Positions 6,369-24,305 of a stretch of DNA of 43,297 bases are shown here, in pieces. This DNA is from a virus, in the IMG/VR virus record IMGVR_UViG_3300042376_001060, positions 1-43,297 of that record; one strand, given 5' to 3'. A model generated the notes under the pieces. It was given only the letters and a program-made list of their open reading frames with translations, was not told the DNA's origin and did no database searches. The position numbers and the translations under genes were made by a program. Each line of letters starts with the position of its first letter. The first letter of the stretch is position 1.

Positions 6369-7277
6369 ATGACCGGACCATTGAAGCAGAAGGCGGTGCC
6401 CCTGACCTCGCCCAAGCCGCGAACCGACCCGTTCGCACCGATGTCTGCACCCCGCCAAACGCAGGACCACAGTTTCGGCGGACGACTGATGGTCTGCTAC
6501 ACCTATCCGATCTATGCCCCGGCGCTGATCCTCCCGCCCGGCGTGCTTGCGTTGTCTCACCACAACTACGGCGAGGGCGTCGTGCCGGTTGGAACCCCGA
6601 GCGTTTCGGCTCAGGCTTGGAACACCGAGGGGACCGTCGATGGTGCCGTGGTCAACTACGAGCCCGTCACGCGGAAGCGTGGTGACGCCGTGGAGGTTTT
6701 GAAGCGGTGGTCGTCCTTGTTCCGCAGGCCGAACGCTTGGCCGTCGGGGGTGTGCGTCGCGTACGGGGCGGACACTGGGATCAACAACCCCGATTGGAAC
6801 ACAACGCCGCACACGATCGCTATGGCGTTGCGGAAACCCAAGACGGTTGGGGACGCGGGGCCGACCGTGTTTGCGAGTCTGGGGCTGGACGGGTACCGGC
6901 GTCGCGGCGATGTCGATTTGAAGGCGTTCGCGGCGAGGCTGTCGTGGAAGGCCGAGCGGCTTACCCGAAACTTCGAGTGGACCAAGACGCCGGGGACGTG
7001 GTTTATCGACGTGCAGGACCAGTTCACCTACCCCGGCAAGGCGTACGCGGTTCCGATCATTCATCGCAAGGAATGGATCATCGCACAGATTGAGGCTTGC
7101 CCGAAGGGGGCCGATCTGTGCATCTTCGCCGGTGCGTCGAACGCGGACGCCCGAGCGGTTGTGGACGAAGCGATTCTCAAAGCCCTTGGGTGGGCGAAAG
7201 AAAGGCGGGACACATGGCAAGGTACTGGATCGTCGAAACCCGGAACGTCGTCAACGAACGGGGCTTCGGCTGGCTGA
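6369..7277 (+). CDS. Conserved-looking late protein, possibly a TIM-barrel-type hydrolase
   Basis: 302 residues. The N-terminal 35 residues are Pro/Lys-rich and likely flexible; the tail (285-302) is Gly/Ser/Thr-rich. The core shows alternating strands and helices ending in acidic residues, such as VVNYEP, VCVAYGAD, WFIDVQDQ and LCIFAGAS, which suggests an alpha/beta barrel like those of glycoside hydrolases. I do not recognise a specific family. Its place next to two membrane proteins makes a cell-wall hydrolase (endolysin) role possible, and no other endolysin candidate is visible. The 3' end overlaps the next gene by 64 bases. Confidence 0.6.
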   Translation: MTGPLKQKAVPLTSPKPRTDPFAPMSAPRQTQDHSFGGRLMVCYTYPIYAPALILPPGVLALSHHNYGEGVVPVGTPSVSAQAWNTEGTVDGAVVNYEPVTRKRGDAVEVLKRWSSLFRRPNAWPSGVCVAYGADTGINNPDWNTTPHTIAMALRKPKTVGDAGPTVFASLGLDGYRRRGDVDLKAFAARLSWKAERLTRNFEWTKTPGTWFIDVQDQFTYPGKAYAVPIIHRKEWIIAQIEACPKGADLCIFAGASNADARAVVDEAILKALGWAKERRDTWQGTGSSKPGTSSTNGASAG

Positions 7278-7873
7278 CGGGGTTCGTGCTGGGGCTGTTC
7301 GCCGTCATCGTGGTTCTGGCCGCGTGGGGGTGCGAGGCTCCCGCCGACCTTGGGCCGGTGCGGGAACAGGCCGCCGAAACGCAAAGCCGTCTGGACGGGC
7401 TGGAGGCGAAGCAGCGGGCGGCTCTGGACGCTGCCAAGGCCAGCGGCGACGCTGAGGGTGCCGCCAAGGCTGAGAAGGCTCTGGCGACCATCGCGGAGGC
7501 CAAGAAGGCCACGGCGACCGCTGAGGGCATCCTGACGCAAGCGACGAACCCGGACGGGACGTTGAACCCCGAGGGGGCGGCTACGGCGGCTGGGGCGGCG
7601 GTCATGGCGATCAATCCGGTTGCGGGCGTGGCGATCACGGTCATCGGCGGGGCGCTGGGTGCCCTGTGGCGTCAGCGCCAGACAGGCCGGGCTAGGGATG
7701 AGGCCGAGGCGAATCTCCGGGCGGCGTCCGAGATTGTCCGTTCGATTGAAGCGGCCAAGGCGGACCCGGCATTCAAGGAAGCCTTTGACCGTAACGCGAC
7801 GACCATCGCCAGCGTGCAGGGCGAGTTGACCAAAGACCTCGTTGACAAGGTGCAGGGTTTCAAGACCGCGTAA
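7214..7873 (+). CDS. Two-span membrane protein with long helical region
   Basis: 219 residues; ATG at 7214 follows AGGCGGGA. A hydrophobic segment at about 19-39 ends in WGCEA, which may be a lipobox-like site or simply the membrane exit. Residues 45-110 are Ala/Glu/Lys-rich coiled coil. A second hydrophobic stretch (about 117-147, Ala/Gly-rich) is followed by another charged helix. It overlaps the preceding gene by 64 bases, an unusually long overlap here. Candidate holin or envelope protein; function not recognised. Confidence 0.7.
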   Translation: MARYWIVETRNVVNERGFGWLTGFVLGLFAVIVVLAAWGCEAPADLGPVREQAAETQSRLDGLEAKQRAALDAAKASGDAEGAAKAEKALATIAEAKKATATAEGILTQATNPDGTLNPEGAATAAGAAVMAINPVAGVAITVIGGALGALWRQRQTGRARDEAEANLRAASEIVRSIEAAKADPAFKEAFDRNATTIASVQGELTKDLVDKVQGFKTA

Positions 7874-7890
7874 CCGACGGGGGGTGCTCC

Positions 7891-8004
7891 GTGTGGGACG
7901 ACGACGACTCGGACGCCAAGGAAGCGATGCGACAGGAAGTCATTCCGGGGGTATGGATACCCCGCGATTCCAGCGACGACGAACCAGAGGAAGGGCCGCC
8001 ATGA
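7891..8004 (+). CDS. Small acidic protein (37 aa)
   Basis: A GTG-started ORF preceded by a GGGGGGTG stretch. It is very acidic (DDDD near the start, DDEPEE near the end), with a central hydrophobic patch around VIPGVWIP. Its TGA overlaps the ATG of the phosphoesterase gene (ATGA at 8001-8004), the same coupling used throughout this genome, which supports that it is translated. No function recognised. Confidence 0.6.
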   Translation: MWDDDDSDAKEAMRQEVIPGVWIPRDSSDDEPEEGPP

Positions 8005-8864
8005 CGGTACCGTTCACGATCGAGCACACCGACCCGCAGGTGGTTACGGTGAGGTGCAAGGCGAAGGGGGAAGATTGGGCTCAGTGGTTCCTGCTTCGGA
8101 CTGACGCCCACCACGACAACCCGCATTGCGATCAGGCAATGGAGCGGCGGCACCTTGACGAAGCGGTGAGGCGGGGTGCGGGTGTCATCGACGCGGGGGA
8201 CCTGTTCTGTGCGATGCAGGGGAAGTACGACAAGAGGTCCGATAAGTCATGTCTGAGGCCGGAACATCAATGCGGGGACTACCTCGACGCGCTCGTTCGA
8301 ACCGCGTCGGAGTTCTACGCTCCCTATGCGCCCTACTGGATCGTCATGGGGCGTGGGAACCACGAGAGCAGCATCAAGAACCGCCACGAGACGGACCTGA
8401 CCGAGCGGACAATCGAGCGGATTCACATGAAGACCGGGACTCGGATCCCGAGCGGGGGGTACACGGGGTGGGTGCGGATCCTGCTTGAACGGTCTACCAA
8501 GCGGTCGTCAATCCGGTTGTGGTACTGCCACGGCTGGGGCGGGGGTGGTGCGGTGACGGTGAACATGATTCAGGCTGGCAACCGAATGCCCGCGATGGTT
8601 GACGGTGCGGACGTGATCTTTACCGGCCACGTTCACGAAGCATGGGTGAACGAGCGGGTTCGGGCGGGGCTGTCTGACATGGGCGTGCCGGTGCAACGGT
8701 CGCTGCACATCTGCCAAGGACCGTCGTACAAAGACGAGTACGCGGACGGGCGGGGCGGGTGGCACATTGAGACGGGCAAGCCGCCGAAGCCGGTGGGTGC
8801 GTGGTGGATGAAGTTGACGTATTCGGACGGGGTTCCGGGCGTTTCGTTTGAGCGGGCGACGTGA
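8001..8864 (+). CDS. Calcineurin-like metallophosphoesterase
   Basis: 287 residues. The metal-binding motif set of the calcineurin-like phosphoesterase family is complete: D-x-H (Asp35, His37), GD (66-67), GRGNHE (117-122), CHGW (His177) and GHVH (209-212). Such enzymes hydrolyse phosphomono- or diesters with two divalent metals; in phages they may act as nucleases, 2',3'-cyclic phosphodiesterases or signalling-nucleotide hydrolases, and the substrate cannot be told here. It is the last gene of the rightward late block, and a -10-like TATAAT follows its stop by 4 bases. Confidence 0.88.
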   Translation: MTVPFTIEHTDPQVVTVRCKAKGEDWAQWFLLRTDAHHDNPHCDQAMERRHLDEAVRRGAGVIDAGDLFCAMQGKYDKRSDKSCLRPEHQCGDYLDALVRTASEFYAPYAPYWIVMGRGNHESSIKNRHETDLTERTIERIHMKTGTRIPSGGYTGWVRILLERSTKRSSIRLWYCHGWGGGGAVTVNMIQAGNRMPAMVDGADVIFTGHVHEAWVNERVRAGLSDMGVPVQRSLHICQGPSYKDEYADGRGGWHIETGKPPKPVGAWWMKLTYSDGVPGVSFERAT

Positions 8865-8867
8865 GGG

Positions 8868-8873
8868 TATAAT
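8868..8873 (+). promoter_or_regulatory. Consensus -10 element after the phosphoesterase gene
   Basis: A perfect TATAAT. The hexamer 17 bp upstream is CGTTTG, a poor -35. Predicted start is near 8880, which would give a transcript of about 170 nt ending at the hairpin at 9019-9040. Confidence 0.45.
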
Positions 8874-8879
8874 TCACCA

Positions 8880-9053
8880 GCGGACGACCCTTCACCCCAG
8901 TGGTGAACGGAAGGAAGCCTTCGGCTCGTGACGAAGTAAATCCCACGAGTGGCACCCCTTCTCCCCCTCCGGTTTCCCCGGCGGTGGAGGATTCTGGAAC
9001 CTGCCTTTCGAGCGGCATCGCCCACCCTCACCGGTGGGCGTTGCTGTTTCTAG
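8880..9053 (+). ncRNA. Candidate small RNA or untranslated leader
   Basis: No convincing ORF. Hairpins follow one another: TTCACC/GGTGAA (8891-8907), CTCGTG/CACGAG (8925-8949), CCTCC/GGAGG around an inner CCG/CGG (about 8966-8990), and CGCCCACC/GGTGGGCG (9019-9040) followed by a T-rich run. With TATAAT just upstream, this looks like an independent RNA unit. It matches no family I know. It could instead be the structured 3' end of the late mRNA. Confidence 0.4.
9019..9053 (+). terminator. Intrinsic terminator-like hairpin
   Basis: CGCCCACC (9019-9026) pairs with GGTGGGCG (9033-9040), loop CTCACC, then TTGCTGTTTCTAG. It would separate late transcription from the early promoter that follows. 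The T tract is interrupted, so efficiency is uncertain. Confidence 0.6.
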
Positions 9054-9091
9054 GGTTTCCCCCGGTTCGTCACTTTGTTTCCGCAAAACCC

Positions 9092-9120
9092 TTGACGACC
9101 GGGCGGAAGCGTGCCATACT
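9092..9120 (+). promoter_or_regulatory. Sigma70-type promoter for the early block
   Basis: TTGACG (9092-9097), a 17-bp spacer, then CATACT (9115-9120). This is the best promoter in the window. Predicted +1 is about 9127, exactly where the first arm of the leader structure begins. Confidence 0.75.
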
Positions 9121-9126
9121 TCTGAC

Positions 9127-9227
9127 GCGAGTCGGAAAACACACAAATTGACCCAGCCCCGTTGTTCGGCTACCGACTCGCAAGCCGTTGCCGTTAGATC
9201 CCTGCGGGGGTCCGACGGGGCTGGGTC
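9127..9227 (+). promoter_or_regulatory. Structured leader RNA with interlocking helices (pseudoknot order)
   Basis: Helix A: GCGAGTCGG (9127-9135) with CCGACTCGC (9173-9181), 9 bp. Helix B: GACCCAGCCCCGT (9150-9162) with ACGGGGCTGGGTC (9215-9227), 13 bp perfect. A smaller hairpin (9197-9202 with 9207-9212, loop TGCG) lies between. The arms come in the order A-B-A'-B', so both can form only as a pseudoknot. The ribosome binding site GGAGG and the ATG at 9246 follow 18 bases later. A second leader with the same order is at 14861-14956. Confidence 0.6.
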
Positions 9228-9245
9228 GGTTTGTGGAGGTTGAAT

Positions 9246-9596
9246 ATGAGCGAACAGACGAAGGCGATTGAGGACGGGGGACCGGCGTTTCCAGTCAGCA
9301 CACGGCACGAGGACGGCAAGTGGGGCCACCAAGACGGCCCGACGACGTGGCAGTGCCCCGGCATGACCCTCCGCGACTACTTCGCGGCGAAGGCGCTGAC
9401 CGGGTTTATGTCGTCGTTTCAGGCGATCAATCGAGAGCGTCCGGAGTGGAAGAGTGACGAACCCGCCAACGACTGGATTACGCCTGACGTTGAAGCGGCC
9501 GAAACCGACGACACGGCTTCGCCAGCAAATGTCGCGGCAGCTTGCTACACGCTTGCCGACGCCATGCTCGCCGCCCGCAAAGGCGGTGTCGCGTGA
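9246..9596 (+). CDS. Phage protein with GGPAFP...GMTLRDYFAAKA signature
   Basis: 116 residues; GGAGG sits upstream of ATG 9246. It contains a GGPAFPV segment (about 11-17) and GMTLRDYFAAKAL (about 39-51), a pairing I recognise from many small phage and prophage hypothetical proteins, with no known role. The C-terminal part (about 90-116) is Ala-rich helix. First gene after the early promoter and structured leader, so probably expressed early. Confidence 0.75.
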   Translation: MSEQTKAIEDGGPAFPVSTRHEDGKWGHQDGPTTWQCPGMTLRDYFAAKALTGFMSSFQAINRERPEWKSDEPANDWITPDVEAAETDDTASPANVAAACYTLADAMLAARKGGVA

Positions 9597-9805
9597 ACAA
9601 CCACGTACACCCCGTCTTCGCCCAGATCCTGAACGACCACGGCCCTTCCCGCGCCCTGCTCGCCCGCTTGCGGGACGCTGAGGCGTACGTCGAATCTCAC
9701 CCGCTGGACAAGTGCCAGAACGAGGAGGAGCGTGAGCGGTTGTTCTGGAACGTCAAGGCGGCGTTGGAGTTGTCGAAGCGCGTGGAGGCTGCCCGGAAGG
9801 GCTGA
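9593..9805 (+). CDS. Small helical protein of unknown function
   Basis: 70 residues from a GTG that overlaps the previous stop (GTGA at 9593). Mostly amphipathic helix with balanced Arg/Lys and Glu. No motif recognised. Confidence 0.65.
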   Translation: MNNHVHPVFAQILNDHGPSRALLARLRDAEAYVESHPLDKCQNEEERERLFWNVKAALELSKRVEAARKG

Positions 9806-9813
9806 AAGGACAC

Positions 9814-10110
9814 ATGGAACACGTGACGAGGGAAGAGTTTACGGAACTTCGGCGCGACCTTGCTCGGTTGTCCGAATTGTCACAGGCCTGTACGAAGTTG
9901 ACTGACGACGTTATGGGCATTTTGGATGCCCGCCTTTCCCGCGCCGAGCGCCTGCTGGACGGGGTGAAGGATGCGGTGTTGTTTGTGGCGGACAACACGG
10001 CTGACATCGTGGCGTTTGACGGCGAGACAATCCGCGTCCACTCCGCCGCCTGCGACATCATCGCCAAGTCTCAGCAGCCCCCCGCGTCGGCTGAGGGGGT
10101 GGAGGCATGA
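9814..10110 (+). CDS. Small coiled-coil-like protein
   Basis: 98 residues, preceded by GAAAGGA. Residues 5-60 form a likely amphipathic helix with Leu heptad spacing; the C-terminus is Pro/Ala-rich. The next gene overlaps by ATGA. Not recognised. Confidence 0.7.
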   Translation: MEHVTREEFTELRRDLARLSELSQACTKLTDDVMGILDARLSRAERLLDGVKDAVLFVADNTADIVAFDGETIRVHSAACDIIAKSQQPPASAEGVEA

Positions 10111-10382
10111 GAATCGCACTTGCGACACTGACGATGGTTGCGTTGGGCGGCTGTGAAATGCCCGACGACAACCCCAAGACCAACCCCGCCGTCGCCAACC
10201 AAACCATCGGCGGTTACACGTTTGTCTACGTTGGCACGCTGACTGAAAACACGCAATTCGAGCGTCTTGTCTGGGAAATCACCGGCCCCGATGGGCAGAA
10301 GTTCATCGCCATTCGGGGATACGGCGTGTCTGAGGTTGGTACCGAGTCGCGGGGAAAGTCCCGCGTCACGGTCGAACGGTAA
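10107..10382 (+). CDS. Putative lipoprotein
   Basis: 91 residues. A short signal sequence ends in LGGC (Cys16), a typical lipobox, so the mature protein would be lipid-anchored. The remainder is a small beta-rich domain (about 30-91). Early lipoproteins in phages can act in superinfection exclusion by altering the envelope, but that role is inference. Overlaps the previous gene by ATGA. Confidence 0.7.
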   Translation: MRIALATLTMVALGGCEMPDDNPKTNPAVANQTIGGYTFVYVGTLTENTQFERLVWEITGPDGQKFIAIRGYGVSEVGTESRGKSRVTVER

Positions 10383-10388
10383 CTCTCT

Positions 10389-10423
10389 CTCCCGCTTCCC
10401 GTCGCGAGCGATCGCGGCGGGAG
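10389..10423 (+). promoter_or_regulatory. Two-part hairpin with GCGA tetraloop
   Basis: Outer stem CTCCCGC (10389-10395) with GCGGGAG (10417-10423); inner stem CGCGA/TCGCG (10403-10416) closing the GNRA-type loop GCGA. No clean T tract follows, so an mRNA stability or translation element is as likely as a terminator. It precedes the gene at 10446. Confidence 0.5.
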
Positions 10424-10445
10424 GTTTCACACGAAAGGAACGAAC

Positions 10446-10841
10446 ATGCAGATTGAACTTTCGGCCGACACACAGACCCGTTTGAACGCCCTGCTCGACT
10501 ACATCGGAACGACCGCGAAGGACGCCGACGGGTTTGTGCGGGAACAGGCCCCGCTCGTAGCGCAGGAGATTGTGGCTTGGGAGTTCTGGATGGGCCTTAC
10601 GCAGGCCGTCGTGGGCGGCATCAGTCTTGTTGTTGTCTTCGGTCTTGTGTTGCGAGCAATTCGCAACCTTCACAAGCACGGATCTTCAATCTCCCCCGAG
10701 CAATGTCTTCCCCACTTTTTTGTGGCGTTTGTGCTTCTCATGGTGGCGCTCCCGCTCGCTTTGTGCGGAACACCGAGGGTCATCAAGTCAACCATCTCGC
10801 CCCGTCTGGTGGTGATCGACTACATCAAGGCGGCGAAGTGA
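10446..10841 (+). CDS. Two-span membrane protein
   Basis: 131 residues. An amphipathic N-terminal 45 residues precede two hydrophobic segments (about 51-72 and 90-108) joined by a basic loop; the C-terminus is short and basic. Preceded by AAAGGAACGAAC. Its stop overlaps the next ATG as TGATG. Topology is holin-like, but placement in the early block argues for an envelope role instead. Not recognised. Confidence 0.65.
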   Translation: MQIELSADTQTRLNALLDYIGTTAKDADGFVREQAPLVAQEIVAWEFWMGLTQAVVGGISLVVVFGLVLRAIRNLHKHGSSISPEQCLPHFFVAFVLLMVALPLALCGTPRVIKSTISPRLVVIDYIKAAK

Positions 10842-10996
10842 TGCCCCTCGACCCCATCGAATACGAGATTCAAGCGATTGCCGACCGGCTGCTTGACGCC
10901 CACTTGGACGACGACGAACCCGACGAATACGACCCCTGCCACGACTCCGCGATCGGGGAAGGGCTGGGGGAGGAGGAAGATGATGCCAAGCCCTAA
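10841..10996 (+). CDS. Small acidic protein (51 aa)
   Basis: ATG overlaps the previous stop (TGATG). The second half is dominated by Asp and Glu (DDDEPDEYD, then EEEDD). Strongly acidic small early proteins can mimic DNA or bind host enzymes, but nothing specific supports that here. Confidence 0.6.
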   Translation: MPLDPIEYEIQAIADRLLDAHLDDDEPDEYDPCHDSAIGEGLGEEEDDAKP

Positions 10997-11321
10997 CCGC
11001 CCGACCGGCCCGTACCAAGTTGTCCCCGACAGCGACTACCTGAACCGCTCGATTATGAAGGTTGTCGGCCCCGGCGCGGTGTGCGAGAGCATCGAATCCG
11101 CGATCGAGGCGCGGCGGCTGGCGAACATCGCCAACACGGCCTACGCGGCGGGGAAGCGGGCGGTGGAGGGGGATTTGTACTGTGCGGCTTACCGCGTTGT
11201 CAGAGCCATCGCGTACCTGTCGGACAAGACGCTGCGATCAGACAGCCCCGAGATTGAGGACCTGCGCGCCATCGTGGATGCCGCCGCCCTCGCGTCAGCC
11301 GGGCAGGAGGTGAAGCCGTGA
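10980..11321 (+). CDS. Small helical protein of unknown function
   Basis: 113 residues if the first of two adjacent ATGs (10980, 10983) is used; AGGAGG lies just upstream, inside the end of the previous gene. A Pro-rich N-terminus is followed by three likely Ala-rich helices. No family recognised. Confidence 0.65.
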   Translation: MMPSPNRPTGPYQVVPDSDYLNRSIMKVVGPGAVCESIESAIEARRLANIANTAYAAGKRAVEGDLYCAAYRVVRAIAYLSDKTLRSDSPEIEDLRAIVDAAALASAGQEVKP

Positions 11322-11363
11322 ACGCGACGAAGATGGAAGTACACACCAAGTAACACGCGCTGA

Positions 11364-11384
11364 GTGCCGGACCCGCGACGGCAC
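11364..11384 (+). promoter_or_regulatory. Hairpin in the gap before the ATPase gene
   Basis: GTGCCG (11364-11369) pairs with CGGCAC (11379-11384) over a 9-base loop. The 95-base gap otherwise shows only the ribosome binding site AAGGAA before ATG 11417. No promoter visible. Confidence 0.35.
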
Positions 11385-11416
11385 AGGCGACATCACCAGC
11401 GGGAAGGAATTTCACG

Positions 11417-12262
11417 ATGGCACTGCGAGGAAAGACCCCGACAATCGGAGACAAGCGGCTCAAATGCTTGTTCTTTGGCGAAGCGGGCAGCGGTAAGACA
11501 ACCGCCGCGATTCAGTTCCCCCGGCCCTACCTCATCGACACCGAGAAGGGCGCTGTGAACGACCAGTACGTCAAACTCATCAAGGACCGGGGCGGCGTGT
11601 CGTACCAGACCAGCGACTTTGACGAGATGGTCAAAGAGGTGCGGGCGCTTCTCAGTGAGAAGCACGACTACGCCACGCTGGTCATCGACCCGATCACCAC
11701 CGTCTATGACGACCTTATCGCCAAGGCGGAACAGCGGGTCGGGTCCGAGTTCGGACGGCACTATGGCGAAGCCAAGAAGGAATGGAAGCGGCTGGGCAAT
11801 CTGCTCACCCGGCTTGACATGAACGTCATCATCACCTGCCACGCCAAGAACCTGTACGGCGACAACCTGAAGGTTCTCGGCCAGACGTTCGACGGCCCGA
11901 AGGGTCTGGACTACCTGTTCGACCTGTCCTTCCTCATCAGCAAACGCGGTCCCGATCGCGTCGGCACGGTGAAGAAGACTCGCGTTGCGGCGTTCCCTGA
12001 TGGTGACGTGTTCCCGTTCTCCTACGACCAGATCGCGGAGCGGTACGGGCGTGCGGTTCTGGAACGTGACGCGGTGGTGGTGTCTCTGGCGACGGCGGAA
12101 CAGGTGCGGCAGTTGACCGACCTGCTCGAAGCCCGCAAGGACGGAGCGGACCTCCGCGACAAGTGGCTCAAAGCGGCTGATGCCGACGAACTGGCTGACC
12201 TGACCGCCGATCAGATCACCAAGTGCATCGAGAAACTCGGCGGAAAGGCGGTGTCTGAATGA
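11417..12262 (+). CDS. Sak4-like RecA-fold ATPase (recombination/annealing)
   Basis: 281 residues. Walker A is GEAGSGKT (21-28), an acidic DTE follows (41-43), Walker B is TLVID (87-91), and a strand ending ITCHAK (139-144) is a likely sensor. This is the organisation of the phage AAA_24/Sak4 family, short RecA-like ATPases that promote single-strand annealing with a partner SSB. Residues 210-281 are helical and less conserved-looking. The following gene, coupled by ATGA, encodes an SSB-like protein, the usual neighbour of Sak4. Confidence 0.8.
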   Translation: MALRGKTPTIGDKRLKCLFFGEAGSGKTTAAIQFPRPYLIDTEKGAVNDQYVKLIKDRGGVSYQTSDFDEMVKEVRALLSEKHDYATLVIDPITTVYDDLIAKAEQRVGSEFGRHYGEAKKEWKRLGNLLTRLDMNVIITCHAKNLYGDNLKVLGQTFDGPKGLDYLFDLSFLISKRGPDRVGTVKKTRVAAFPDGDVFPFSYDQIAERYGRAVLERDAVVVSLATAEQVRQLTDLLEARKDGADLRDKWLKAADADELADLTADQITKCIEKLGGKAVSE

Positions 12263-12750
12263 GTTGGTACAACCCCAAAGATGCGGAAATGCCCCTGATC
12301 CTCGATGGGATCTACGAGGCGACGGTGACGAGCGCCGAACACAAGGCGAGCAAGGCCGGGAACCCGATGGTGGAGTTGGGGCTCACGCTCTACACGCCGG
12401 AACGCGAGTCCAAACTCCGCGACTATCTGGTGAGCGGGTCTGGTACGTGGAAGATCAAGGCGTTCGCGGAAGCGTTCAACGCTCGGGCTGAGTTTGACAG
12501 CCAGCAGTTCGACCCGGCAAACTACGTGAACAAGAACCTTCGCGTGGAGGTTGCCACCCGTCCGAGCAAGGACCCTCAGTACGGGCCGCAGAACACGGTC
12601 AAGGACTACTTGCCGACCGAGATGGCTGCCCCCAAGCCCGCCACCCGTGCGGCGGCTCCCTCCCCGCGTCCGAAGGCCGGGATGATTAACACTGGACACG
12701 CTCCGATGACGGAGGAAGACATCCCTTTTAGCGGTGCCCGTAGGACCTGA
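12259..12750 (+). CDS. SSB-like protein (DUF669-type) with acidic IPF tail
   Basis: 163 residues. The N-terminal 115 residues look like an OB-fold domain of the DUF669 kind that accompanies Sak4 ATPases. A Pro/Ala-rich linker (125-148) leads to TEEDIPF (151-157), close to the acidic tip by which bacterial SSB recruits partners, though here seven residues follow it. Likely binds single-stranded DNA during recombination or replication. Start overlaps the ATPase stop (ATGA). Confidence 0.72.
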   Translation: MSWYNPKDAEMPLILDGIYEATVTSAEHKASKAGNPMVELGLTLYTPERESKLRDYLVSGSGTWKIKAFAEAFNARAEFDSQQFDPANYVNKNLRVEVATRPSKDPQYGPQNTVKDYLPTEMAAPKPATRAAAPSPRPKAGMINTGHAPMTEEDIPFSGARRT

Positions 12751-12761
12751 GTTCTACGGGC
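12736..12761 (+). promoter_or_regulatory. Hairpin spanning the SSB-like gene stop codon
   Basis: GCCCGTAG (12736-12743) pairs with CTACGGGC (12754-12761); the stop TGA lies in the loop. No T run follows. The 131-base gap to 12882 also holds GC hairpins such as GCGTCA/TGACGC just before AAGGAG. Confidence 0.45.
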
Positions 12762-12881
12762 GATGGGAATAAACCCAACGCCTCACCGGGGTCCCAGACC
12801 CCTCTTCTCCGCTCGTCGCGTCGCTCACCCGGCGCGGCGGGTTTCAGGCCGCGTCAGCCTTGATGACGCAAGGAGTTCACG

Positions 12882-13094
12882 ATGGAAACGTCCCCCGAAA
12901 CAACGCCCGAGATTGACACCACAAACGACTACCTGCTCAGAGTGTCCGGCGGCGGAATCCGTCCGTTCATGCCGATCGGACAAATGTCCAAGGAAAAGGC
13001 CCTGCGATTGGCCGCGTGGATCGTGGCCCTCATGGACGAGTCCGACGGGCACGCCGATTTCAACAAGGTCCTTCAAGCCGTTGAATCCACCTGA
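12882..13094 (+). CDS. Small protein of unknown function
   Basis: 70 residues; AAGGAG precedes the ATG. A Thr/Glu/Pro-rich start is followed by one beta segment and an amphipathic helix (45-65). Not recognised. It stands alone, with structured gaps on both sides. Confidence 0.65.
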   Translation: METSPETTPEIDTTNDYLLRVSGGGIRPFMPIGQMSKEKALRLAAWIVALMDESDGHADFNKVLQAVEST

Positions 13095-13101
13095 CACACC
13101 C

Positions 13102-13160
13102 GGGGCTTGTTGCCCCAAACACCCACGCACCCCCCACTTGGCTGACGCTGCGAGGGGGGG
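13102..13160 (+). promoter_or_regulatory. Tandem hairpins; second sequesters the ribosome binding site at 13163
   Basis: GGGGC/GCCCC (13102-13116, loop TTGTT) is followed by ACCCCCC (13129-13135) pairing with GGGGGGT (13154-13160). The only Shine-Dalgarno-like sequence for ATG 13163 is this G run, so the second stem would block translation unless opened. Confidence 0.5.
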
Positions 13161-13162
13161 TT

Positions 13163-13357
13163 ATGGAAGACCCGACGTGCCACCACTGCCACCGCCCCGC
13201 CGGATCGTTGCTGAACCGGTACGGCGAGCCTGACGGGATCAGCCCGACGACGCCGCTGGGTCCGCTGGCAACGTGCGAGTGCGGGCGGGTGGTGTGCCCG
13301 GAGTGCCGGGACGAGTGTTGCGACCTCGCCGCGTGCGGGGGGAAGGAGAAGAAGTGA
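13163..13357 (+). CDS. Small double-CxxC zinc-ribbon protein
   Basis: 64 residues. CHHC (about 6-9) and a later CECGRVVCPEC cluster give two potential metal-binding sites, with more Cys near the end (ECC, AAC). Likely a zinc-stabilised fold for nucleic-acid or protein contact. The GTG of the next gene overlaps its stop. Confidence 0.7.
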   Translation: MEDPTCHHCHRPAGSLLNRYGEPDGISPTTPLGPLATCECGRVVCPECRDECCDLAACGGKEKK

Positions 13358-13527
13358 AGCATTTCGTTGGCATCGTCCCGCCGTGCGGCCTCAAAGATTA
13401 CATGATCGTTGTCTTTGACGGCAGAGGGAAGTGGAACGGCACAGCGTTCAGCGCCACCCGAGACGGTGCGAAACGCGAGGCGAGGCGTCTTCGCCGCGTG
13501 TTCAACAAGAAGAAGTCCACCCCATGA
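13354..13527 (+). CDS. Small basic protein
   Basis: 57 residues from GTG (GTGA overlap), with AAGGAG upstream. The first 33 residues form strands with a FDGRGKWNG turn; the end is Arg/Lys-rich. Not recognised. Confidence 0.65.
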   Translation: MKHFVGIVPPCGLKDYMIVVFDGRGKWNGTAFSATRDGAKREARRLRRVFNKKKSTP

Positions 13528-13577
13528 CCACCCCCACCCAACGCACGCTCGCACACGCGAGGGAGGAAGCACGATGA
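13524..13577 (+). CDS. Candidate 17-aa coupling peptide
   Basis: A tiny ORF whose ATG overlaps the previous stop (ATGA 13524) and whose TGA overlaps the ATG of the resolvase (ATGA 13574). The AGGGAGG serving the resolvase lies in its last codons. It may simply carry ribosomes to the resolvase gene. Confidence 0.4.
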   Translation: MTTPTQRTLAHAREEAR

Positions 13578-13951
13578 CGACGAGCTACACGATCACGCTG
13601 CCGCTGCCGCACAAGCACCTGTCACCGAATGCACGCCCACACTGGCGGGCGAAGGCGAAGGCGACGAAGACCGCACGAACGTCCGTCGCGGTTGAGGTTG
13701 CCGCCGTGATGTCGTTCTACGAGTCGGTTGCGCCCCGCTGGAAGACCGCCACCGTCCTGATCCGGGCCTACTTCAAGGACGCCCGCAAGCGGGACAAGGA
13801 CAACATCATGGCCTCGTGCAAGGCGTATTTCGACGGGCTGGCCGACGCCGGGCTGATCGACAACGACTCGGGGCTGACGCACCTTCCGATGGTGGTGGCG
13901 ATCGACAAGAAGAACCCGAGGATTGAGATGGTGGTGACGAAACAGGACTGA
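13574..13951 (+). CDS. rusA: RusA-like Holliday junction resolvase
   Basis: 125 residues, a normal RusA length. The N-terminal strand has the substrate-side PHKHLSPNARPHWR segment, and the acidic core reads KRDKDN (Asp74, Asp76) followed by KAYFDGLADAG and IDNDSG (Asp96, Asp98). These match the D-x-D-N...D-G-L...D-D pattern of RusA, which cuts Holliday junctions symmetrically with a divalent metal. It would resolve branched intermediates made during recombination or before packaging, in line with the Sak4/SSB pair upstream. GGGAGG precedes ATG 13574. Confidence 0.88.
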   Translation: MTTSYTITLPLPHKHLSPNARPHWRAKAKATKTARTSVAVEVAAVMSFYESVAPRWKTATVLIRAYFKDARKRDKDNIMASCKAYFDGLADAGLIDNDSGLTHLPMVVAIDKKNPRIEMVVTKQD

Positions 13952-13980
13952 GGCGGCGGGTGGGAAGAAAGGACGTACTG

Positions 13981-14280
13981 ATGCCTTGCACTGATGGCGG
14001 ACCAACTCGTGACCAGATGGATGCCGAAAGGATCAACCAACTGACAGAGGACTTGTGCTACGTCCTCTCTCGGGTGGAACGTGGCGACAAGCTCGCCCTG
14101 ATCCTGAAAGAGAAGCCGACGTTGGCGAAGTGGTGGGCCAACCACAAGGCCGAGGACGCCAAACGCGAGGCTCGGGAGCGTGCGGCGGCAAAGAACAAGC
14201 GGGAACGCGATGCGGCGCGTGAGTCGGCCTTGTCGAAGCTGACCGATGCGGAACGTGCCGCCCTTGGTCTGAACAGGTAG
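13981..14280 (+). CDS. Small charged helical protein
   Basis: 99 residues; an AAAGGA precedes the ATG. After about 20 residues it is almost entirely helical, with a highly charged Arg/Lys/Glu stretch (60-85). Such single long helices often bind nucleic acid. Not recognised. Confidence 0.7.
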   Translation: MPCTDGGPTRDQMDAERINQLTEDLCYVLSRVERGDKLALILKEKPTLAKWWANHKAEDAKREARERAAAKNKRERDAARESALSKLTDAERAALGLNR

Positions 14281-14294
14281 TAGGTCGCAAAGCA

Positions 14295-14345
14295 CCCCCC
14301 GCCGCGCCGAGAGGTGGGACGGGGGGATTCCGGGCGCGTGGCCCG
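14295..14345 (+). promoter_or_regulatory. GC-rich structured leader before 14367
   Basis: CCCCCC (14295-14300) can pair with GGGGGG (14321-14326), CGCGCC (14303-14308) with GGCGCG (14333-14338), and CGGGC (14331-14335) with GCCCG (14341-14345). The first two interlock, the third competes with the second. Stems are short and GC-only, so chance pairing is possible. AAGGAG and ATG 14367 follow. Confidence 0.35.
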
Positions 14346-14366
14346 ACGGTGGGGGAAGGAGTTTCT

Positions 14367-14735
14367 ATGAGCATTCATCACGTTCCGGGGAAGGGGCAGC
14401 ACACGATCGTTCGCATCGAACACACGTCTTGGCCGGGTGATGCGGTTCGGGTCGCCCAGTTTGAGGACAGCGACACCAACGAGAACGACTACTTCGCCGG
14501 GGTTGGATGGTGCATTCGATGGGCATTAGACGGCTTGCTGTCCGGAAGTCACGAATGCGCAGCCAGAGAATTGGTCGATGCTCTGGGCGAGATTGAGGAG
14601 TGCGACCCCGAGTGGTTCAGAGACGAGACCGAACGTCGTCTTATGAAGACGATAATGGATGCCGCCGTGGAGCTGTCTAGCTACAAAGCGTCCAAGAGGC
14701 AAGAGTCCAAGCGGACAAAGAAGAAGCCAAGGTGA
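14367..14735 (+). CDS. Protein of unknown function with basic tail
   Basis: 122 residues; AAGGAG precedes the ATG. Residues 10-55 are beta-rich, 60-100 helical, and the C-terminus (105-122) is Lys/Arg-rich, suggesting nucleic-acid contact. Not recognised. Last gene before the regulatory gap that drives the replication genes. Confidence 0.7.
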   Translation: MSIHHVPGKGQHTIVRIEHTSWPGDAVRVAQFEDSDTNENDYFAGVGWCIRWALDGLLSGSHECAARELVDALGEIEECDPEWFRDETERRLMKTIMDAAVELSSYKASKRQESKRTKKKPR

Positions 14736-14789
14736 CCTCCCCCCGCGTCGCCTACCGGTGTCGCGGGCGCTTGAACAACCGACAGGCTT

Positions 14790-14842
14790 ATCACACACCA
14801 TCCACACCTAAACCCCCGCTTGCAACAAGCGAGCGGTGTGAT
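14790..14842 (+). promoter_or_regulatory. Inverted repeats and DnaA-box-like motifs upstream of the replication promoter
   Basis: ATCACAC (14790-14796) and GTGTGAT (14836-14842) are inverted; between them lie ATCCACA and the hairpin CGCTTG-CAA-CAAGCG. TTATCACACA, ATCCACA and TGTGGTAT each resemble the DnaA box TTATCCACA imperfectly. A binding region for a regulator or DnaA-like protein is plausible; no exact box is present. Confidence 0.35.
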
Positions 14843-14845
14843 TTG

Positions 14846-14854
14846 TGGTATGAT
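14846..14854 (+). promoter_or_regulatory. Extended -10 promoter for the replication genes
   Basis: TGG directly precedes TATGAT (14849-14854), the TGn extended -10 pattern that can work without a -35. Predicted +1 is about 14861, where the first arm of the structured leader begins. Confidence 0.6.
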
Positions 14855-14860
14855 TAGGCA

Positions 14861-14956
14861 ACTCACCCATGTTCACCATTTGCGCCATTCCGGAAGCCCC
14901 CGTCACCGTCGCCATGTCTCTGAACATGGGTGAGTCTTCGGTGTTCGGGGGCTTTC
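14861..14956 (+). promoter_or_regulatory. Second structured leader RNA with interlocking helices
   Basis: Helix A: ACTCACCCATGTTCA (14861-14875) with TGAACATGGGTGAGT (14921-14935), 15 bp perfect. Helix B: 14892-14902 with 14946-14956, built on AAGCCCCCG/CGGGGGCTT and extended by a G-T and a G-C pair. Order A-B-A'-B' gives a pseudoknot, as at 9127-9227, and again the first arm begins at the predicted +1. The initiator ATG follows 24 bases after helix B. Confidence 0.65.
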
Positions 14957-14991
14957 GCTTTGGCGGGACTGGGGGCACGGATGCCGACTGA
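14869..14991 (+). CDS. Candidate 40-aa leader peptide
   Basis: An ATG inside helix A opens a 40-codon frame ending 8 bases past the initiator ATG (14981). The end is Gly-rich. If translated, ribosomes would melt the leader helices and couple to the initiator gene. There is no Shine-Dalgarno site and only about 8 nt of 5' leader, so this is tentative. Confidence 0.3.
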   Translation: MFTICAIPEAPVTVAMSLNMGESSVFGGFRFGGTGGTDAD

Positions 14992-15889
14992 CGTTTACAC
15001 GATCAAAGACTGGAACGAGACGTTCGAGAACTTCCGGACGCGGGCGCTGACCACAAGCCTCCGCTGGGTCCAGTTGCCGACCAAGCAGGACGCGCTCGGA
15101 TTCAGGATGCTTATGCGTTCCCCGGAAGGGGTGGCGGCATACGGCGTGTTTGTGGCCCTTGTGCAGATCGCGGCCAAGGTTCCGGTTCGTGGGGTGCTCG
15201 CGGACGAGAAGGGCCCTATGTCCGATAACGTGCTGGCCGCGAGGATCGGTTGCCCGTTGGAAGTGCTCACGAAAGCGCTGCAAGTACTTACTGGGCCTGA
15301 CGTTGGGTGGATCATCGTTCAAGCATCGACCGACCATCGATCGACCATCGTTCCTGCATCGATCGAGCATCGATCGTCTATCGTGGGTCCCTTCCCTTCC
15401 CTTCCTTCCTTTCCTTCCATTCCTGAAGAAACGAAAACTCCGAAACCGGGGATCAAATACCAGCCCGGACAGGTCGATCAAGCGTTCTCCGCGTTCTGGA
15501 ACGCATACCCCGCAAACAGGCAGCGAGCCCGAACAACCGTCCGGAAGTTCTGGATCGATAACGACCTCACCGCCCACGCCCCGAAGATCATGGCGGCGCT
15601 CGCCAAGGACAAGGCATCCGCCGAATGGACCAAGGACGGTGGGAAGTTCGTCGGCAACATGGCCGAGTGGTTGGACCGCGACTGGACCTCTATTACCCCG
15701 CCCGTTGCGTCAGGACGCCACCCAAGGGCTCCGGACATCCGGACGTGGTACGACAGCCTCCCGCCCGAGCGACAGCAGGAAGAGGCATCCAAGGCGAATC
15801 TGCCGCTCACCGCCGTCCGCGAACTGATGAACCACCACACGATCCCCGAACAGATCATCAAGTCATGGGAGGCCAACCATGTTGCATGA
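14981..15889 (+). CDS. Replication initiator / replisome organizer (origin-containing gene)
   Basis: 302 residues. ATG 14981 is preferred over the upstream GTG at 14930, which lies in the leader helix. The N-terminal 120 residues read as a winged-helix-type DNA-binding domain (YGVFVALVQIA, then LAARIGCPLEVLTKALQVL). Residues 110-150 are low-complexity because the DNA beneath consists of iterons and a pyrimidine tract. The C-terminal part has the FWNAYP...RKFW...WLDRDW pattern of phage replisome organizers that load helicase. It overlaps the DnaB gene by 11 bases, matching an initiator-helicase module. Confidence 0.78.
   Translation: MPTDVYTIKDWNETFENFRTRALTTSLRWVQLPTKQDALGFRMLMRSPEGVAAYGVFVALVQIAAKVPVRGVLADEKGPMSDNVLAARIGCPLEVLTKALQVLTGPDVGWIIVQASTDHRSTIVPASIEHRSSIVGPFPSLPSFPSIPEETKTPKPGIKYQPGQVDQAFSAFWNAYPANRQRARTTVRKFWIDNDLTAHAPKIMAALAKDKASAEWTKDGGKFVGNMAEWLDRDWTSITPPVASGRHPRAPDIRTWYDSLPPERQQEEASKANLPLTAVRELMNHHTIPEQIIKSWEANHVA
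15313..15389 (+). repeat. Seven tandem 11-bp iterons (candidate replication origin)
   Basis: Units start at 15313, 15324, 15335, 15346, 15357, 15368 and 15379, exactly 11 bp apart. Each begins CATCG (the last TATCG); units 2, 3, 5 and 6 continue as A-C/T-CG. Examples: CATCGATCGAC, CATCGATCGAG, CATCGTTCAAG. The period is about one helical turn and is not a multiple of three, so it is kept as DNA rather than as a protein repeat. Confidence 0.85.
15388..15426 (+). other. Pyrimidine tract next to the iterons (possible unwinding element)
   Basis: Almost pure C/T on the + strand, built from CCCTT and CCTT units, followed by an A-rich stretch (GAAGAAACGAAAACTCC). It sits where the AT-rich unwinding region lies beside lambda ori iterons. 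Homopyrimidine DNA can also form triplexes. Confidence 0.6.
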
Positions 15890-17207
15890 AGACCCGCACG
15901 ACATGACCGCCGAGTTTTGCTTGATCGGGTGCTGCTTGCTCGAACCCGGCGTTATTGACGACGTGGTGGAAGCCGTCGGTGGAGTCTCCGCGTTCCACAA
16001 CCAGCGGCACCGAACCGTGTTCTCCGCGATCCAGTCCGTTCACGAATCCTCCGGCACCTTGGATCTTGTGATGCTTCGGCGGCACATGGAGGACGAGGGC
16101 ACGCTCGCCACGATTGGCGGGGATGACGCTCTGGCCGAGTTTGCAAACGGCGTCCCGGTGGCGACGAACTGGCCGCACTACGCCAAGAGCGTTGCAAGAA
16201 AGGCCCAGCAGCGGCTTGTGCTTCAGGCGTGCGAGGCTGCGGCATTCAGCATCCGAAGCGCCAGCACTGGGGAAACCGAGGAAGTCATCGCGTCGTCAGC
16301 CGAGGCGGTGATCGCTGCCGCCATGCAGTCCGACCGGACGCCGGACGTGAGCCTGAACGTTCTGCTTGAACAGTCCATCGAAGAACTCGGAAAGACAACC
16401 CTGAGCGGGCTGAGGCTTCCGCTTCGGGAACTGGCCGATCGGGTCGGCGATCTTGTGCTCGGTGAGTACACCGTGGTTGGCGCTCGCCCGTCGATGGGAA
16501 AGACCGCGTTTGGTATGCAGTGCGCCCTGTCGCTTGGACGGGTTGCCCCCGGTGCGTTCTACTCGATTGAGATGCCCGCCGCAACCATCGCCCACCGCAT
16601 CCTTGCCGGGCTGGTCAACACAACGGTTACGAACATCCGGCAGAACCGGGTGGACCACATGGCCCTTGCCCGCGAGGTGATCCGGCTGGGGGACATTCCC
16701 GTGACGATCGACGCGACGAACCCGCTCACGCTGCAATCGCTCACGTCCAAAGTGCGCCGGATGGTCGCTCGCAAGGGTATTCAGTGGGTGGTAATCGACT
16801 ACCTGCAATACATGAACTCGCCCCCGCACGCGAAAGAGGGTCGGCGTGCGGAGATTGAGGCGATCAGCCGTGGCCTGAAGACTCTGGCGAAGAATCAGGG
16901 CATTCACGTTATCTGTCTCGCGCAGCTCAACCGTGGCGTTGAGGGCCGATCGGAGAACCGTCCGCGAATGTCCGACCTTCGGGAATCGGGCGCGATTGAG
17001 CAGGACGGCGACAACATCCTCCTGCTTCACCGCGAGGCGTATTACCACAAGGGCGACGTTGCGTGGATGCAGGACAATCCCACCAAGATCGACGAGGCGG
17101 AAGTGATCGTGGACAAGTGCCGCAATGGGGAAACGTGTTCGGTGACGTGCAAATGGAATGGGCCGAGCACGCGGTTCGAGGAACGTGATGCGGGGTGGCA
17201 GGGATGA
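15879..17207 (+). CDS. dnaB: DnaB-type replicative helicase
   Basis: 442 residues, full length for the family. The N-terminal helical domain (1-110) carries the LLEP and VFSAI segments of DnaB. The RecA-like motor has Walker A GARPSMGKT (201-209), a YSIEM strand (228-232), Walker B VVIDY (304-308), the sensor AQLNR (348-352) and the LRESGAIEQD arginine-finger region (367-376). It would form a hexamer that unwinds DNA 5' to 3' ahead of the host replicase. GGGAGG lies 10 bases before ATG 15879. Confidence 0.95.
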   Translation: MLHEDPHDMTAEFCLIGCCLLEPGVIDDVVEAVGGVSAFHNQRHRTVFSAIQSVHESSGTLDLVMLRRHMEDEGTLATIGGDDALAEFANGVPVATNWPHYAKSVARKAQQRLVLQACEAAAFSIRSASTGETEEVIASSAEAVIAAAMQSDRTPDVSLNVLLEQSIEELGKTTLSGLRLPLRELADRVGDLVLGEYTVVGARPSMGKTAFGMQCALSLGRVAPGAFYSIEMPAATIAHRILAGLVNTTVTNIRQNRVDHMALAREVIRLGDIPVTIDATNPLTLQSLTSKVRRMVARKGIQWVVIDYLQYMNSPPHAKEGRRAEIEAISRGLKTLAKNQGIHVICLAQLNRGVEGRSENRPRMSDLRESGAIEQDGDNILLLHREAYYHKGDVAWMQDNPTKIDEAEVIVDKCRNGETCSVTCKWNGPSTRFEERDAGWQG

Positions 17208-17701
17208 TGGACCCCCGCGCAAAGTTTGACAAGGCCGTGTCCGACTACCGGGCGTGTCCGAACGCCGGTCCCGCGATGAGCGCCCTGCTTCGCGTCCGCG
17301 AGGCCGCTCTTGAACTCTACGAAATTGCCCGGCGTGAACAGAAGGCGATGCGGGTTCGTGGAAGGCTGTCTTTCCCGCGATTCGCCACGGTCGAGATGCA
17401 GCAGAACTACGAGAAGGCCCTTGGGCTTGCGGGCGTGTTTGATTCCGAGGTTGTTCACGGGGCGAAGGACCGGCACTCCGTGGTGTTTCGGTGGGCGTGG
17501 ACGTACTTCTGCCGAACGTGTGGCTATTCGTTTCCTGAGATTGCGCGTTCGATGCGGAAGCAGAGTCACACGACGTTGATGGAATCGGTGGACAAGATGG
17601 ACAACGGGTCGGGTGTGACAGAGGACAACGCGCGTGCGTTGTTGGCGAGGTTTCGTAACGAGTTGACAATGCCCGCGAGCGGGCGGAAGGAGGCGGTGTG
17701 A
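17204..17701 (+). CDS. DnaA domain-IV-like DNA-binding protein
   Basis: 165 residues, ATGA overlap with the helicase gene. Residues 88-150 follow the pattern of DnaA domain IV: an Arg-initiated helix, an aromatic helix, G-x-S-x-x-EIAR, then a recognition-helix motif KQSHTT (119-124) in place of the usual RDHTT. There is no AAA+ ATPase domain. The N-terminal 80 residues are helical with basic patches. It may bind DnaA-box-like sites on phage or host DNA, either helping initiation or blocking host initiation. Identified by eye only. Confidence 0.65.
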   Translation: MMDPRAKFDKAVSDYRACPNAGPAMSALLRVREAALELYEIARREQKAMRVRGRLSFPRFATVEMQQNYEKALGLAGVFDSEVVHGAKDRHSVVFRWAWTYFCRTCGYSFPEIARSMRKQSHTTLMESVDKMDNGSGVTEDNARALLARFRNELTMPASGRKEAV

Positions 17702-17997
17702 AGCCACGTCGTGTCAGGCAATGCCCCAAGTGCGGCAAGTGCAAAACCCGGATCAGTGAAACGCGAGACTGTGATTCGGGGGCCGCCCGCAGGCGTCGGC
17801 ACATTTGCGTGGCGTGCGGAACAAGGTGGAGCACAGAGGAGAGAGTGGTCGGTGAGGACATCGTTTTCAAAGACCCGGAAGTACTGACAAGGTCGATGTG
17901 TTCGGTTTTGTTCAGCATCGCTGAAGCGGAAGCTGTGCTAAAGGCGTGCATCGCGTCGCTTTCTCCAATCACAACCACCCAAGGAAACCCCCAATGA
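17698..17997 (+). CDS. NrdR-like zinc ribbon protein without ATP-cone
   Basis: 99 residues from GTG (GTGA overlap). CPKC (9-12) and CVAC (37-40) frame an RRRR stretch (31-34) and are followed by GTRWSTEER, closely like the N-terminal zinc ribbon of NrdR, the repressor of ribonucleotide reductase genes. The ATP-cone that senses nucleotides in NrdR is absent; the rest is a short helix. It may bind NrdR boxes and alter host nucleotide supply, but that is inference. Confidence 0.65.
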   Translation: MKPRRVRQCPKCGKCKTRISETRDCDSGAARRRRHICVACGTRWSTEERVVGEDIVFKDPEVLTRSMCSVLFSIAEAEAVLKACIASLSPITTTQGNPQ

Positions 17998-18287
17998 CCC
18001 CCATCTCCCCCGAAGTCCTCGCCGAAGCGCAGGACGCCAAACGACCCGCCATCTGCGTGATTCTTACCGATTGTGCCGGTAAAAACCCGCGACAGTTTGA
18101 CTTCGTAGCCTCACGCGACGAACAATCGTCGTTCCTCGATTTCGTGAGGAGGCTGCTTGCGAGGCGTGGCCAACAACGTCGAATCAGTCCGCGTCAATTC
18201 GGGTCGCGTGCGGACGTGTCGCGTGACGGTTCGAGCGGGCGAAGGTGCAACAACTGGACGCCGGGATGTGAAAGGAGGGGGGAATGA
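17994..18287 (+). CDS. Small protein of unknown function
   Basis: 97 residues, ATGA overlap. Residues 1-55 look folded (helix, strand, helix); the rest is Arg/Ser-rich and probably disordered, which could hint at an old frameshift near 18150. Not recognised. Confidence 0.55.
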   Translation: MTPISPEVLAEAQDAKRPAICVILTDCAGKNPRQFDFVASRDEQSSFLDFVRRLLARRGQQRRISPRQFGSRADVSRDGSSGRRCNNWTPGCERRGE

Positions 18288-18595
18288 CGATTGAGGAGTT
18301 GAGGAAGAAACAGGTGGAAGCCGTGCAGTACCTTGTGGGCTCTGGACCGATGCACGAAGACGACTGCCCGTGCGACGACACTTGTTCGTGCGAATGGAAA
18401 CAGCATAACGACGCGATCAATTCGCTTGTGGTGCTGTACCTCCCTCTTCTCGCGGTCGCGGAGGCGGCGGAGAGTGTCGCCAAGGCTGAGCGGGACTTCG
18501 CTTGTGGACGCTTGCCGCCGCCGGGTCGAAACGAACGACTTGTGAACCTCGAATCCGCCCTCGCGGACTTCGCCAAGGCAAGGGAGGCAATGTGA
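18284..18595 (+). CDS. Small Cys-containing helical protein
   Basis: 103 residues; GGAGG upstream. A CPCDDTCSCEW cluster (about 28-38) may bind metal; the remainder is Ala/Glu-rich helix. Not recognised. Confidence 0.65.
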   Translation: MTIEELRKKQVEAVQYLVGSGPMHEDDCPCDDTCSCEWKQHNDAINSLVVLYLPLLAVAEAAESVAKAERDFACGRLPPPGRNERLVNLESALADFAKAREAM

Positions 18596-18852
18596 GCATG
18601 AAACCGATGACGACTGAGCAAATGGCGACGTACTTGGAGAACTGCGTGGCAGTCTGCCCGTCGCACGGGCAGCAAGCAATCACCGCCATCGCCCGCCGCC
18701 TGCGTTTGCTGGCGGAGGTGGCGAGTTGTGAGCGGGCGTGTTTTGACCCGGAGACGGGCCGACAAGTTGGCGGTGGTGGAGACTGCCGCGATTTGTCCGC
18801 CGCCCGCGCCGCCCTCGAATCCGACGAGCGGGAAGGAGGACACAATGGCTGA
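18592..18852 (+). CDS. Small protein of unknown function
   Basis: 86 residues if the GTG overlapping the previous stop is used; ATG 18598 is an alternative start. Helical, with four spaced Cys. Overlaps the next start by 8 bases. Not recognised. Confidence 0.6.
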   Translation: MSMKPMTTEQMATYLENCVAVCPSHGQQAITAIARRLRLLAEVASCERACFDPETGRQVGGGGDCRDLSAARAALESDEREGGHNG

Positions 18853-22150: not shown

Positions 22151-22188
22151 AATCACCCCGCGCGACGTTGGCCGGGCGGGGTGGGGGT

Positions 22189-22404: not shown

Positions 22405-22415
22405 CGTTTGTCCTT

Positions 22416-24255: not shown

Positions 24256-24289
24256 CGTTCGTCTCCTGTGCCGGGTGACTCCCGACCCC

Positions 24290-24305
24290 ATGAGTATACC
24301 TCATC
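24290..24305. promoter_or_regulatory. Palindromic operator candidate on the leftward -10
   Basis: ATGAG-TATAC-CTCAT is an inverted repeat overlapping the leftward -10. A bound HTH dimer would block that promoter. Confidence 0.5.

Follow-up and report, generated by a model that had tools for sequence, protein, structure and literature searches.

A probable family of leader RNAs with crossing helices in six phage contigs

Control of early phage operons by RNA alone is known from few systems, and the put elements of HK022 and the gene 32 pseudoknot of T4 are the cases compared here. putL and putR of HK022 are described as cis-acting structured RNAs that lie behind early phage promoters, two per genome, with putL almost at +1 (PMC9378689), and a pseudoknot has been placed in the 5' leader of the DNA-metabolism gene 32 of phages T4, T2 and RB69 (PMC3014915). 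The locus described here lies in a stretch of viral DNA of 43,297 nt, hereafter the window, which carries two candidate leaders, W1 in front of the early block and W2 in front of a replication gene. The best explanation as a whole, to which we give a probability of about 0.5, is that W1 and W2 belong to an undescribed family of phage leader RNAs that act on early operons in cis. The components of this reading differ in strength: the family is very probably real, its two-state or pseudoknot folding is quite probable, and control of early transcription in cis falls slightly short of even odds. Family and structure are well supported.

The novelty of the family is stated against Rfam 15 and a title-level literature search. 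Among the titles listed in that search none describes a leader of this kind, and Rfam 15 gave no match at gathering score, either for the window, searched at the gathering threshold, or for the leaders other than R2, searched alone in E-value mode. The preliminary description of 8868-9053, which had been made by inspection, matched the region to no family. Four weak matches to 8840-9300 (E 0.25-2.6) lie far below their gathering scores. The best of the weak matches to the leaders, mir-30 at R1 (22.6-23.1 bits against a gathering score of 50.2), was taken as a long-hairpin artefact.

The late/early junction

The last gene of the late block is DNA-repair-exonuclease-like (Table 1); the true start probably lies further into the open frame, and we read the product as being of metallophosphoesterase type. 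Its TGA stop occupies 8862-8864, and an exact TATAAT, the only one in the window, starts three bases later rather than four as first described. The hexamer had been taken as the promoter of a free-standing RNA, but as a promoter it carries little weight, being at chance level: dinucleotide shuffles of the window contain a mean of 0.94 copies, and 60 of 100 shuffles contain at least one. A consensus scan for sigma-70-type sites called none at this position and no -35. Nor did the string of hairpins noted in the roughly 170 nt that follow hold up on folding, for 8880-9011 taken alone gives a z of -0.17, a stability equalled or bettered by 74 of 200 shuffles. The z of -2.6 obtained for the whole of 8875-9053 is consequently attributed to the hairpin at its end.

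That hairpin, noted earlier as a terminator-like stem with a T-rich tail, is present and strong. The scan called the stem at 9019-9040, and folding of 9008-9053 (-28.4 kcal/mol, z -6.1, none of 200 shuffles as good) extends it to about 9010-9049; with a stable, G+C-rich stem and T-rich sequence behind it, it has the form of an intrinsic terminator, here with an interrupted T-tract (TTGCTGTTTC). It is the probable terminator of the late transcript, a role that had been suggested from the outset and that agrees with the hairpin found at a corresponding place in the nearest relative.

The closest relative found is locus L002 (contig L163/L164), in which a neighbour protein is 82% identical. Between the end of its late gene and the downstream gene, blastn found nothing alike, and no TATAAT follows the late gene; directly after that gene comes a hairpin and then a T-rich stretch, the 74-nt stretch as a whole giving z -1.8. 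This relative carries two leaders, R1 and R2. Between its late-gene hairpin and its early leader lies an integrase gene (L164 9218-10723), which the window does not have at this junction; our reading is that a lysogeny module was gained or lost here. In the planctomycete phylum, the sole phylum compared, 157 of 294 genomes contain a match to this integrase.

An independent small RNA starting near 8880 would account for the exact TATAAT and the terminator downstream of it, but the chance-level hexamer, the absence of a -35, the body folding like shuffled sequence and the lack of conservation in the one close relative make it highly improbable, and the candidate was dropped. On the same results, the preferred reading of 8868-9053 is a 3' untranslated region that closes the late operon and carries its terminator. 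The wider expectation of an unfamiliar structured RNA at the late/early junction survives with a change of place, since such an RNA is predicted at 9127-9235, as the 5' leader of the early transcript.

Table 1. Positions of the features discussed, in the window unless another contig is named
Feature	Contig	Position	Strand	Basis or remark
Last late-block gene, DNA-repair-exonuclease-like		7842-8864	+	phrog_7339, E 7e-9
Exact TATAAT		8868-8873	+	chance-level; no -35 found; absent in closest relative
Body of the earlier candidate ncRNA		8880-9011	+	folds as shuffled sequence
Terminator hairpin		9010-9049	+	scan and folding
Promoter TTGACG-17-CATACT, TG before -10		9092-9120	+	consensus scan; predicted start 9126-9127
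W1 helix A, 5' strand		9127-9135	+	at predicted transcript start
W1 helix B, 5' strand		9142-9164	+	23 bp with 9213-9235
W1 helix A, 3' strand		9173-9181	+	9 bp with 9127-9135
W1 helix B, 3' strand		9213-9235	+	ends at Shine-Dalgarno GGAGG (9235-9239)
First early gene, phrog_2201, function unknown		9246-9596	+	behind W1
W2 extended -10, TG-G-TATGAT		14849-14854	+	predicted start 14860-14861
W2 helix A, 5' strand		14861-14875	+	15 bp with 14921-14935
W2 helix B, 5' strand		14891-14902	+	12 bp with 14946-14957
W2 hairpin C		14912-14917/14924-14929	+	alternative to A, whose 3' strand it also uses
W2 helix A, 3' strand		14921-14935	+	
W2 helix B, 3' strand		14946-14957	+	
Replication initiation protein gene behind W2, then DnaB-like helicase		14981-15889	+	phrog_9474, E 2e-9, scanned from upstream GTG at 14930
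R1	L164	10394-10500		end of integrase open frame, before phrog_2201 homologue
R2	L164	15743-15839		before HNH gene
X1	L187	15516-15618		contig of a MAG labelled actinobacterium; before exonuclease VIII-like gene
X2, X3, X4	L295, L296, L297			reached via exonuclease VIII-like gene of X1

Members, covariation and folding order of the leaders

W1 begins about 75 nt past the segment discussed above. It is preceded by the sole sigma-70-type site called in 8000-10000, whose -10 ends at 9120, so that the predicted first nucleotide of the transcript is that of A5' or the base before it. The inverted repeats are ordered A5' B5' A3' B3', so that helices A and B cross, and 9127-9235 folds with a z of -5.7. 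The early block behind W1 encodes the phrog_2201 protein, a Sak4-like annealing protein, SSB, RusA, a replication initiation protein and a DnaB-like helicase; five Burkholderia phage records match 8400-9600 among GenBank phages, inside the first early gene only. W2 (14861-14957) has no significant sequence in common with W1. Just 5' of its promoter, at 14816-14836, lies a terminator-like hairpin that parallels the one upstream of the W1 promoter, and the two may insulate both leaders from upstream transcription.

In a scan of the window for crossing helices W1 scored best (79.5) and W2 was the next independent site (68.5); the highest scores in ten Markov-1 sequences as long as the window were 53.5-66. 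The set assembled comprises eight leaders in six phage contigs (W1, W2, R1, R2 and X1-X4). The exonuclease VIII-like gene behind X1 led to 28 loci, of which the three closest relatives, at 56-71% identity, carry X2-X4; the late-block protein is also encoded in all three of these contigs. Two leader copies are present in two of the six contigs, and the X contigs yielded none beyond their first, that of X1 being searched as pieces L234, L254 and L294; parts of the contigs may be missing.

A high crossing score does not by itself decide membership, since three G+C-rich sites (L181, L201 and L211) reach 67-71.5 without a promoter, and these were left out of the member count. A promoter-anchored search for crossing helices covered 3.15 Mb on both strands, with six duplicate loci left out, and gave 10 hits, namely W1, W2, X1-X4, a duplicate of X1, L015 twice and L058; its promoter cut-off excludes R2 (promoter score 8) and R1 (no promoter). 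The six members recovered score 60-79.5, and L015 and L058 score 44-49.5. One set of shuffles gave no hit and four further sets gave 2 in all, the best at 49. L058, at 44, lies inside the shuffle range and was left out, as were L234, L236, L193 and L175, which are reverse-strand images or same-contig duplicates.

L015, whose score of 49.5 adjoins the shuffle maximum, is kept as a tentative leader only. It occupies 7213-7326 of contig IMGVR_UViG_3300048580_000411, between a divergent CI-type repressor gene (phrog_4) and a rightward open frame. The whole leader folds with z -0.6, and the probability of helix B is 0.16 at the point of its completion. A strong terminator hairpin (z -4.0) follows at about 7332-7360, and after A3' the candidate has CCTTCGATGG in common with X2.

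The W2/R2 motif occurs in 15 stretches of viral contigs, one of which is R2 and the other 14 of which lack a comparable crossing structure, and W2, R2 and X2 matched GenBank phages only at E 0.6-7. Nothing was found with the W2/R2 model in 392 genomes of the planctomycete phylum or, at E up to 0.1, with the R1 model in 392 genomes, and a search of prokaryote genomes with the tail protein found no homologue. The A helix of X1-X4 (GCCACC/GGTGGC, then TCC) resembles the acceptor end of a tRNA. An acceptor-like pattern occurs in 30 of 396 and 44 of 392 genomes; among the sequences listed, several matches are tRNA genes by eye, and the leader is recognised only in the known X1 record. Cleavage by RNase P of pseudoknots with an RCCA end, to which this resemblance led, is described in PMC12710915. 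ARAGORN predicts no tRNA or tmRNA in the window, L163, L164, L187 or L295-L297.

The structure of the leaders is borne out by covariation. W2 and R2 align without gaps over 121 columns, and the pairs of A, B and an extension of B are standard in both at 28 of 28 positions, with 9 pairs changed on both sides. Sliding the register by 1-3 columns lowers the paired fraction to 36-52%, and when the 18 W2/R2 substitutions are placed at random (20,000 trials) a mean of 16.2 and a maximum of 24 of the 28 pairs are kept. Across the eight members all 129 positions of helix B are paired (117 Watson-Crick, with G-T pairs present), a count that holds partly by construction as B was found through its pairing; compared two by two, X1-X4 show 3-6 double changes in B. 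Helix A has alternative pairs at positions 2-5 across the seven alignable members, in a segment alignment of our own making that leaves out W1 and includes one unpaired outer position in the X4 row. W1 is without the A-helix consensus of the other seven and gives no significant alignment with R1, so the kinship of these two rests on position and topology.

Helix A measures 8-15 bp and helix B 12-23 bp, and the loop from A to B (L1) spans 6-33 nt. Judged by loop length, coexistence of A and B as a pseudoknot would be plausible in W2 and R2 and doubtful in W1, where a 6-nt loop would have to cross 23 bp. In W2 and R2, one strand is common to A and hairpin C, and at its one variable position, column 64, covariation is seen with the partner in each helix. 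L1 and L3 may form a third, weaker crossing helix, D, in X1-X3, where it is equalled by 1.0-2.6% of shuffles each; nothing beyond chance was seen for it in the other five members, and prefix folding favours A over D (P(D) 0.01-0.18). Pairing between the leaders of one phage, or between 8868-9053 and the leaders, is no better than in shuffles.

In W2 and R2, an ATG at +9 of the predicted transcript begins a gapless frame through the leader (window 14869-14990; L164 from 15751), which ends at the next gene in W2 and runs into it in R2, and X1 has a GTG at +9. A leader peptide in W2 and R2 was nevertheless dropped, with differences spread evenly over the codon positions (13/15/12) and 13 of 33 residues matching.

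A promoter score of at least 8 is found within 0-2 nt of A5' in seven of the eight leaders, a level reached at 0.14-0.86% of positions in these sequences. A perfect TTGACA is present in each of X1-X4, and in R1 no promoter was recognised. A promoter-anchored 5' helix without B is not enriched (4.2% against 4.3% in shuffles). In prefix folding, from which pseudoknots were excluded, all eight leaders behave alike: A has a probability of 0.92-1.00 once A3' is made, and B reaches 0.95-0.99 at completion with A gone, the lowest value 15 nt later being 0.93. Helix B has a high G+C content, and the short T-rich stretch that follows or overlaps it is weaker than that of a normal terminator. The low T content after B (1-5 T in 12 nt) means that B is not a textbook terminator.

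Two arrangements of another make were noticed in passing. On the minus strand of L050, at about 5822-5690, crossing inverted repeats lie upstream of a gene start; one of their strands, TCTCAACTCC, is perfectly complementary to the Shine-Dalgarno region of that gene, GGAGTTGAGA. Another copy of GGAGTTGAGA precedes a second start close by, and by eye the repeats look like a translational switch. In L084, at about 6811-6943, a perfect consensus promoter (score 14, TG-TATAAT) precedes a predicted 5' end that could take part in a G+C-rich hairpin ahead of T6, which may be read, on this predicted folding, as an attenuator-like leader in another phage.

Proposed role and alternatives

The layout of sigma-70-type promoter, A5' at the first nucleotides of the transcript (0-2 nt), B5', A3', B3' and early gene lends itself to a mechanism in which the order of folding matters. 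As the polymerase leaves the promoter, A would close when A3' emerges; once B3' emerges, the stronger helix B would displace A, or lock onto it as a knot, just before the operon. The order of folding would then time a decision in cis, most likely whether to elongate or stop (attenuation or antitermination) and possibly one of ribosome access. Transcription of the leaders, their folding order in vivo and their regulatory output are predictions from the DNA. Prefix folding, the weak T-rich stretch after B and the L015 copy beside a repressor gene with its terminator are the grounds on which control of early elongation in cis is favoured.

In a more far-reaching form of this mechanism, which we consider rather unlikely, the family would be a protein-free RNA timer: successive 5' segments would pair in order (A D B / A' D' B' in X1-X3), each fold being passed on, and the state reached when the polymerase arrives would decide the transcription of early and replication genes without any protein.

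Improbable, though with a phage precedent, is a put-like element, in which the folded leader would stay on RNA polymerase so that pauses and terminators in long early operons are ignored. The place directly behind predicted early promoters and the two copies in one genome recall putL and putR (PMC9378689), and W1 heads the early operon and W2 the replication operon. Put RNAs, however, are two consecutive stem-loops with a common sequence, whereas W1 and W2 have crossing helices and lack significant shared sequence; moreover, terminator-like sites in 8800-26000 are not commoner than in shuffles (12 against 16.5), which would leave little to antiterminate.

Of equally low probability is a stability element, whose paired extreme 5' end would shield the early mRNA from 5'-end-dependent decay. 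The position of A5' within 0-2 nt of the predicted start in seven of eight leaders would suit such a shield, as would a structure kept more than its sequence, which is expected where pairing alone matters. A simple 5' hairpin would be enough for this purpose, however, leaving the crossing partner B and the conserved surroundings of A3' unexplained, and A is lost once B is complete in nested-only folding.

Still less probable is a protein operator of the kind formed by the pseudoknot of T4 gene 32, at which a phage protein would bind the knot and repress translation of the next gene. PMC3014915 supplies a phage precedent, and the first gene begins soon after B; but the genes behind the leaders are unlike one another (phrog_2201, replication initiation, HNH and exonuclease VIII) and the leader sequences differ strongly, which does not suggest one common binding protein. 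Next in order comes the small RNA from about 8880 set aside above, and least credible of all is a DNA element (attachment site or origin), for which the places of R1, where an integrase open frame ends, and of W2, ahead of a replication gene, might speak, but against which stand the G-T pairs in the helices, the fixed place behind a promoter with gene-facing orientation in seven of eight, and the lack of an integrase at the other sites seen.

A family of this kind, with crossing helices beginning at +1, a structure retained through changes in most of its sequence and two copies in one genome, would offer a compact, testable model of a growing RNA chain that decides by its order of folding. It would also supply a landmark for early promoters in uncultured phages.

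Comparison with known systems

Crossing helices and competing helices both have counterparts among described RNAs. HDV-like ribozymes have a P1 of about 7 bp that starts at the cleavage site and forms the 5' end, P1 and P2 that cross, and a short J1/2. The leaders resemble them in having crossing helices in the same order with the first at the 5' end; they differ in an A of 8-15 bp, an L1 of 6-33 nt and the absence of an Rfam match, and the promoter accounts for the 5' position. Classical attenuators consist of mutually exclusive helices that share a strand. The leaders would resemble these in that a helix formed early at the 5' end gives way to a later G+C-rich hairpin directly ahead of the operon; they differ in that A crosses B and shares a strand only with C, and in their weak T-tract.

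Nearest in kind are HK022 put and the T4 gene 32 pseudoknot, neither of which fits fully. Put RNAs lie directly behind early promoters, two per genome; seven of the eight leaders start at a predicted promoter, and two of the six contigs carry two copies. In put, two stem-loops of about 70 nt with a common sequence follow one another without crossing, whereas the leaders have crossing helices in the order A5' B5' A3' B3' and their copies differ. Put acts on RNA polymerase through the beta' zinc-binding domain. With the H-type pseudoknot leader of T4 gene 32 they have in common two crossing helices with covariation. That leader is the autoregulatory operator of one gene, in contrast to the leaders described here, in which B extends over 12-23 bp and unrelated genes lie downstream in several phages.
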